From assembly GCF_021730435.1 (NCBI RefSeq), contig NZ_JABWGX010000008.1, forward strand, positions 1 through 64,000: 64,000 nucleotides of DNA. Direction: 5' to 3'. Position numbers and translations under genes: made by a program. Under the pieces are notes generated by a model that searched no databases, was not told where the DNA came from, and worked only from the letters and a program-made list of their open reading frames with translations. The stretch is from Xanthobacter agilis (lineage in GTDB: Bacteria; Pseudomonadota; Alphaproteobacteria; Rhizobiales; Xanthobacteraceae). Below, piece after piece: positions 5,981 through 45,406 of this stretch (positions are counted from its first letter, which is position 1; each line of letters begins with the position of its first letter).

Positions 5981-6297
5981 TGGCCGCGAAGATCAAGAAA
6001 GGCGACAAGGTCGTCGTCCTCGCCGGCCGCGACAAGGGCCGCACCGGCGAGGTCATTCAGGTGATGCCGAAGGAAGAGCGCGCGCTCGTCCGTGGCATTA
6101 ACATTGTCAAGCGCCATCAGCGCCAGACGGCGAACCAAGAGGGCGGCATCATCCCCAAGGAGGGGCCGATCCACCTGTCGAACATCGCCGTTGCCGATCC
6201 GAAGGACGGCAAGCCGGTTCGCGTCGGCTTCCAGGTGCTGGAAGACGGGAGCAAGGTCCGTGTGGCCAAGCGTTCCGGGGAGAAGATCGATGGCTGA
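5980..6297 (+). CDS. rplX: 50S ribosomal protein L24
   Basis: 105 residues, KOW-domain protein that initiates 50S assembly. [20 protein letters not shown] carries the KOW motif, and the [15 protein letters not shown] segment is typical. The start ATG 5980 overlaps the rplN stop. Its own 3' end overlaps rplE by eight bases (rplE ATG at 6290), so these three genes are translationally linked. Confidence 0.97.
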
Positions 6298-44335: not shown

Positions 44336-44506
44336 ATGGCCTCCCACAAGGGCGATGTGCCTCTACCTGTGCGTTTCGTGCCGGGCACGGCGGTGCGCGT
44401 GCGCCCGCCGTGGCAGACGACCGCGAAGGCGGTTGCGCGCTCCAGGGCGGGCATCCGCCTGGTGGCGTCCAATACGCCCGACTGCAAGGATGAGACCAAG
44501 GATTGA
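44336..44506 (+). CDS. Small basic protein upstream of the globin gene (tentative)
   Basis: 56 residues, MASHKGDVPLPVRFVPGTAV to the stop at 44506, 30 bases before the globin start. GAAGGG stands 8 bases before its ATG, and a perfect TATAAT at 44269-44274 lies upstream, though without a good -35 element. It is Arg/Lys-rich in the middle and contains one Cys. No known domain. Its spacing suggests a two-gene transcript with the globin. The spacer 44155-44335 otherwise holds only that promoter element. Confidence 0.45.
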   Translation: MASHKGDVPLPVRFVPGTAVRVRPPWQTTAKAVARSRAGIRLVASNTPDCKDETKD

Positions 44507-44536: not shown

Positions 44537-45406
44537 ATGACCATCTCGACCACGGCCCCGTCGGCCGTTCCTCACGCAGGCCCCGCGCTCCATCTGCCGG
44601 CGGCCAACGCGGCAACGGCGGATTTCGCTGGCGTGGCCTTCGTCGGCGCGCCCCATGCGCCGGCGCGACCGGGCATCTTCATCCTCACGCGGGCCATCGG
44701 CGGCTTTGCCTATCCGGCCTATGTGGGTGAAGGCGACGACATGGCCGCGGCCGAAGCCGCCGCGCGGGCCTTGTGGCCGGTGGAGGCCGCGCTGATCGAC
44801 GGCGTCTTCCACATGGAGCGCGCCAATGCGCGTCTGCGGGCCCATACCCTGCGCGACCTGATCGCCAAATATGATCCGCCGCTGAACACGGTCGGGCGCA
44901 AGGGCCCGGCGTCACCTGAGATCGCGGCGATCATTCCCGATCGGGCCGAGGGCTGGCCGGAGGGCGCGCGCGAGCAGCTCGCCACTCAGATCCACGCCAC
45001 CGAGGCGGACCTCGAACGCTTGGTGAAGGAGTTCTACGCGTCGGCGGGGGCCGATCCGGTGCTGGGGCCGGTCTTCACCCGCGCCATTCCCGATTGGGAC
45101 GAGCATTACCGCATCGTGCAGAATTTCTGGTCGCGCGCGCTGCTGGGCACCAGCCGCTATACTGGAAATCCCTTCTCCGCCCACATCATGCTCCAGCTCA
45201 AGCCAGAACATTTCACGCGCTGGGTGGATCTCTTCAAGGCCACCGCCCGCAAGGTGCTGGAACCGGCGGCGGCGGACCGCGCCATTGCCAAGGTGGAGCA
45301 CATGAGCACCTGCTTCCAGGCCGGATTGTTCCTGCCGAGCCTCGATGCGCCCGCCAATGCCCCGGTGGTGGGGCATCACGGGATGGCCGGCGCGCCCCCG
45401 CGCTGA
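44537..45406 (+). CDS. Group III truncated haemoglobin with N-terminal GIY-YIG-like domain
   Basis: 289 residues from ATG 44537 with GGAGGG upstream. Residues about 160-270 are a class III truncated globin: LVKEFYASAGADPVLGPVF, IVQNFWSRALLGTSRYTGNP and EHFTRWVDLF with His225 as proximal haem ligand. Normal TrHb3 is about 130-150 residues, so the first 145 are extra. That region has GIF (46-48), YPAYVGEGDDM (YVG 62-64) and LIAKYDPPLN (108-117), in the order and spacing of GIY-YIG nucleases, but the catalytic Glu before LI is not there. It may be a DNA-binding or vestigial domain. The domain call is my own reading. Confidence 0.75.
   Translation: MTISTTAPSAVPHAGPALHLPAANAATADFAGVAFVGAPHAPARPGIFILTRAIGGFAYPAYVGEGDDMAAAEAAARALWPVEAALIDGVFHMERANARLRAHTLRDLIAKYDPPLNTVGRKGPASPEIAAIIPDRAEGWPEGAREQLATQIHATEADLERLVKEFYASAGADPVLGPVFTRAIPDWDEHYRIVQNFWSRALLGTSRYTGNPFSAHIMLQLKPEHFTRWVDLFKATARKVLEPAAADRAIAKVEHMSTCFQAGLFLPSLDAPANAPVVGHHGMAGAPPR

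Follow-up and report, generated by a model that had tools for sequence, protein, structure and literature searches.

The window analysed here is a 64,000-nucleotide stretch of Xanthobacter agilis DNA (NCBI RefSeq assembly GCF_021730435.1, contig NZ_JABWGX010000008.1, positions 1 to 64,000 of the forward strand). It carries a gene for a fusion protein in which a GIY-YIG-like domain is joined to a group III truncated haemoglobin, and GGAGG lies directly 5' of the ATG of this gene, as read from the sequence. The gene and its two domains are as follows.

44537 to 45406, + strand: fusion gene, pseudo-GIY-YIG domain plus group III truncated haemoglobin; 289 amino acids (aa), open reading frame (ORF)
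44591 to 44899, + strand: N-terminal GIY-YIG-fold domain (residues ~19-121), called from predicted structure, profiles and residues; landmarks GIF46 and YVG62, Ala (A72) where the helix Arg would be, Leu (L105) at the catalytic Glu position, and PPLN at 114-117
44984 to 45340, + strand: group III truncated haemoglobin domain (residues ~150-268), with Y167 (B10), H190 (E7), H216 (F8) and W229 (G8)

Domains of the fusion protein

The whole protein has no Pfam match, and NCBIfam names no globin or GIY-YIG family for it. With no family named above cut-off, the calling of both domains rests on fold and profiles, and because Pfam is near-silent, annotation pipelines could easily overlook the N-terminal part. 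The C-terminal half matches Bac_globin in Pfam with an E value of 0.0033 (18 bits, under the cut-off of 21), and phmmer against the PDB returned Ctb, the Campylobacter group III truncated haemoglobin, at 2.8e-11, which bears out the globin call of the first-pass annotation, though Pfam alone is weak. The domain has the 2/2 fold, with Ctb (PDB 2ig3) as the closest solved structure found and a likeness that covers fold and haem-pocket residues; the 2ig3 chain has 127 aa, whereas the window protein places a 145-residue N-terminal part ahead of its globin. The labels HisF8, TyrB10, HisE7 and TrpG8 are those we take to apply by alignment to Ctb. H216, Y167, H190 and W229 are kept in all 14 distinct fused proteins, a set that includes the window's own and leaves out L012, L014, L015 and L016 (the same proteins as L002, L003, L005 and L008) and the remnant L011. 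Close to its C-terminal end the globin has an HMxxC motif (H255 and C259; 45299-45313) that is present in 14/14 fused proteins and in 2/29 standalone globins (L072, L073). The X. agilis genome holds a second match to the globin domain (G000:C64:154728-155072, - strand, 42% identity) as well as another truncated globin, detected with PF01152 (G000:C44:94916-95278, + strand).

The N-terminal part carries the motifs listed in the first-pass annotation (GIF at 46, YVG at 62 and LIAKYDPPLN at 108), and its predicted structure has the GIY-YIG alpha/beta fold read from them, with a predicted local distance difference test score (pLDDT) of 94.6 and UvrC at all of Foldseek ranks 1-9. The likeness to the N-terminal GIY-YIG domain of UvrC (PDB 1ycz, 1yd2-1yd6) covers the fold, the GIY and YIG strands and the terminal Asn; the window protein differs in lacking the catalytic Glu and Arg as well as the rest of UvrC. 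GIY-YIG-type motifs recur in order across the fused proteins: residue 46 is Gly in 14/14, residue 48 is Phe in 12 and Tyr in 2, residue 62 is Tyr in 7, Leu in 5, Phe in 1 and Val in 1, and residue 64 is Gly in 12 and Ala in 2. The structural motifs are thus kept in homologues, though the YIG tyrosine is Tyr in only 7/14. With the fold predicted and the motifs kept, neither outcome that the first-pass annotation had named as refuting its reading occurred.

Comparison by hhalign of the 14 fused N-terminal domains with ten UvrC domains, chosen by motif pattern out of 31 GIY-YIG loci, gave P 4e-4 at a probability of only 35%, against P 0.19-0.8 in 20 column shuffles; this result, together with recurrence in 14 fused proteins, places the motifs beyond chance. 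Against four bridging sequences (L023, L033, L034 and L035), which came from the search with profile A2, the fusion family scored P 2.4e-11, a value that is partly circular; no profile contained UvrC. PF01541, the Pfam GIY-YIG model, was listed for 0/14 N-terminal domains at E values up to 10, a test in which HMMER filters discard most matches above ~0.1.

Lost catalytic residues, relatives and spread

Known GIY-YIG nucleases require both a catalytic Glu and an Arg on the first helix. Across the 14 fused proteins the Glu site (residue 105) is Leu in 8, Ala in 5 and Val in 1, and the Arg site (residue 72) is Ala in 12 and Asp in 2, so that catalysis by the N-terminal domain has very probably been lost. 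In the window protein the site just before LI, from which the first-pass annotation had reported the Glu missing, is Leu105. The terminal Asn (N117) is kept in 14/14, and the same set shows no variation at R95, R99, R101, R121 or the PPLN motif. The term 'vestigial', offered earlier for this domain, very probably holds for catalysis and fails for decay: the ratio of non-synonymous to synonymous substitution rates (dN/dS; Nei-Gojobori, 10 sequence pairs that we selected from 91 possible) is 0.11-0.30 over residues 29-140 and 0.09-0.25 over the globin, and since these values indicate purifying selection, the dead domain is not decaying. The N-terminal tail (residues 1-28) is freer in most pairs (0.07-0.73).

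Standalone relatives place the loss of these residues in context. Of 16 N-terminal-domain matches outside the window, none with a globin in its own reading frame, nine were kept: five strong (L028-L032) and four weak (L023, L033, L034 and L035), the latter for showing GIY-YIG motifs and the Glu. The weak four belong to the same subfamily, with an Arg four residues ahead of the Glu site and a PPLN or PTLN end; unlike the fused domains they retain Glu as well as the helix Arg, and their reading frames revealed no globin. Within this group, L033 matches Pfam GIY-YIG with an E value of 0.0029 (below cut-off) and the NCBIfam excinuclease Cho at 1.8e-4 (far below cut-off). For L023 the Pfam GIY-YIG models give 0.065 and 0.16, for L034 Cho gives 0.17, and L035 matches neither. 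The strong group has Val and Ala at the Glu and Arg sites. All 23 proteins, 14 fused and nine standalone, share R101 (four residues ahead of the Glu site), P60, P114 and N117 without exception. L028-L032 are close relatives of ~146-149 aa from five genomes of one genus and end in DP(I/L)ELIARF; a split gene was considered here and rejected, all five genomes carrying a globin match on a different contig. The other seven matches (L024-L027, L036-L038) were discarded as unrelated or unclear, and L024 (1393-1839, + strand; a 149-aa open frame with a PGVFML...VPLVIG stretch, E 5.9e-4) is a possible further relative of the domain.

The fusion recurs within the Xanthobacteraceae, where the first-pass annotation had proposed looking for it: 9/198 family genomes carry it, namely the window's own, six more of the same genus and two of another genus. 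Scanning genome contigs with the whole protein gave ten loci, comprising the remnant L011 and nine fusions (five Xanthobacter, three uncultured Rhodopila and one uncultured Rhizobiales). The window's own was the only fusion found in the class (385 genomes), order (297) and phylum (299) samples, in searches that sampled each group and aligned the best 10-13 first-look candidates per genome, so that fusions may be missed; the class and order samples also contained N-terminal-domain matches without a globin. The globin domain is matched in 166/297 order genomes, and among the 29 best-scoring globin loci besides the window in that sample none has an N-terminal-domain match. In plasmid records, 172 match the protein and 0 do so with one place covering 80% of it. 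A viral scan with profile A2 gave a single locus (L106), a Pro/Ala-rich match of 29 residues within a 1397-aa ORF, which was rejected as chance. In the globin tree, the 14 fused globins lie on one side of a branch with support of 93/79, just under the usual double threshold, and the same branch occurs in 92% of 200 bootstrap trees, with eight standalone globins adjoining. This topology fits a single fusion event, without proving it.

Neighbouring genes and upstream sequence

One further feature lies immediately upstream of the fusion gene.

44336 to 44506, + strand: small basic ORF, 56 aa (K+R 10, D+E 5), ending 30 bases 5' of the fusion gene

This ORF has no Pfam match at E 0.01 and co-occurs with the fusion, being present in the same 7/11 same-genus genomes and in 0/4 of those that lack it. 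Its VPGT..R...PW core is common to its relatives. When the flanks of ten relatives were compared, multi-gene synteny with the window was found only in L002, so the pair of ORF and fusion persists in different surroundings in L003, L005 and L008. Genes for a cytochrome c' (PF01322; 42244-42711, + strand) and a cytochrome b561 (PF01292; 42799-44217, - strand) lie within 2.3 kb upstream; because both are kept in L002 and were not found in the other compared flanks, they are weak evidence on function. No TTG-N8-CAA (FNR/NnrR-type) box occurs within 700 bases 5' of the window gene, and 1/14 upstream stretches has one, that of L018 (the L004 stretch has only 205 bases). The L018 box is a perfect palindrome of FNR type, TTGATCCGGATCAA, 198 bases upstream of the gene.

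Possible roles of the fused domains

Sequence and structure prediction together show two folds, conserved haem-pocket residues, loss of Glu and Arg in 14/14 fused proteins, purifying selection and a tree compatible with a single fusion. We favour, with a probability of about 0.5, a haem-carrying truncated haemoglobin of the group III kind, tethered to a GIY-YIG module that has lost catalysis and serves for binding or docking. The globin would carry out the O2 or nitric oxide (NO) chemistry presumed for its standalone relatives. What was once the nuclease surface (R95, R99, R101, N117 and R121) would bind a ligand or partner and thereby place or tune the haem domain. Within the window's genus, the product of the 56-aa basic ORF immediately 5' would be the first candidate partner. 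The Arg residues and PPLN, being invariant, suggest a retained binding surface and, because the gene is kept in some related bacteria, the dead nuclease part probably has a job, perhaps as a binding module.

Several results weigh against this reading. None of the Foldseek matches reaches E 0.001 or better, and by sequence alone, with the standalone relatives left out, the N-terminal domain matches UvrC at a non-significant E value of 0.25. The relative placement of the two domains is modelled without confidence (predicted template modelling score 0.54 for the full model; linker pLDDT <50). The N-terminal domain has no net basicity (K+R 11, D+E 13), which weakens a simple DNA-binding reading; being slightly more acidic than basic, it leaves plain DNA binding unassured. 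No fusion match is present in 4/11 same-genus genomes, and Xanthobacter autotrophicus DSM 432 has only a 3' remnant with an internal stretch gone (L011, ~6001-6108), which makes the gene dispensable. Upstream of the six homologues outside Xanthobacter, no small ORF was seen (by eye; two also by search).

The first-pass annotation conjectured a redox or NO sensor tied to nucleic acid. In such a haem-gated switch, the globin's response to NO, O2 or redox state would alter binding of nucleic acid, or of a partner, by the pseudo-nuclease domain, which we consider unlikely. The nearest folds to the N-terminal domain are nuclease domains, a plant GIY-YIG/glutaredoxin fusion offers reported mutual regulation (available text of PMC5890173), and a Bradyrhizobium group III truncated haemoglobin appears in an nnrR-mutant table with an NnrR-type site (available text of PMC6710368), an entry that supports a link to NO for this kind of globin, not for the window gene. 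The lack of net basic charge and the scarcity of upstream boxes argue against the switch, as does domain order: an excerpt of PMC1457004 defines a globin-coupled sensor as an N-terminal 3/3 globin with a C-terminal output domain, whereas the window globin is of 2/2 type and C-terminal. If true, the switch would be a bacterial counterpart of the plant fusion, with haem instead of thiol.

It is likewise doubtful that the N-terminal domain is purely structural, serving solubility, oligomerisation or haem-pocket shielding without specific binding. The absence of catalytic residues would suit such a role, and terminal extensions of algal THB11 are reported to promote oligomers (excerpt of PMC7082302), but invariance of R95, R99, R101, R121 and PPLN in 14/14 appears to exceed the needs of a passive spacer. 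A haem-controlled nuclease acting through substitute residues is highly improbable, since Glu and Arg are both missing in 14/14, even with the fold and the conserved Asn retained.

For the favoured tethered haem protein, the nearest precedent is plant plastid GRXS16, whose N-terminal domain we take to be PDB 2lwf. Multidomain truncated haemoglobins are reportedly the subject of Hade et al. 2017. GRXS16 carries its N-terminal GIY-YIG domain on a glutaredoxin, with endonuclease activity and mutual negative regulation reported (PMC5890173, a review, in its available text); the window protein differs in that its C-terminal domain is a globin. The available text of PMC7082302 mentions kinase and nitrate reductase domains as fusion partners of truncated haemoglobins, likewise 2/2 globins with another domain, and in that text no GIY-YIG partner is mentioned; the available parts of PMC4720485 and PMC4648194, both globin papers, contain nothing on fusions. 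Among open-licence PMC papers, none was found with both 'truncated hemoglobin' and 'GIY-YIG', and those combining GIY-YIG, globin and fusion appear, from their titles and opening abstract lines, to have no bearing on it. Both parts are known, no description of their union was found in that literature, and we class the GIY-YIG domain as a new fusion partner of truncated haemoglobins. The gene is a conserved natural example of a haem protein joined to the fold of a DNA enzyme that had lost its catalytic residues, and with Glu-bearing standalone relatives available for comparison, the question of what pseudo-nucleases do can be tested at the bench.
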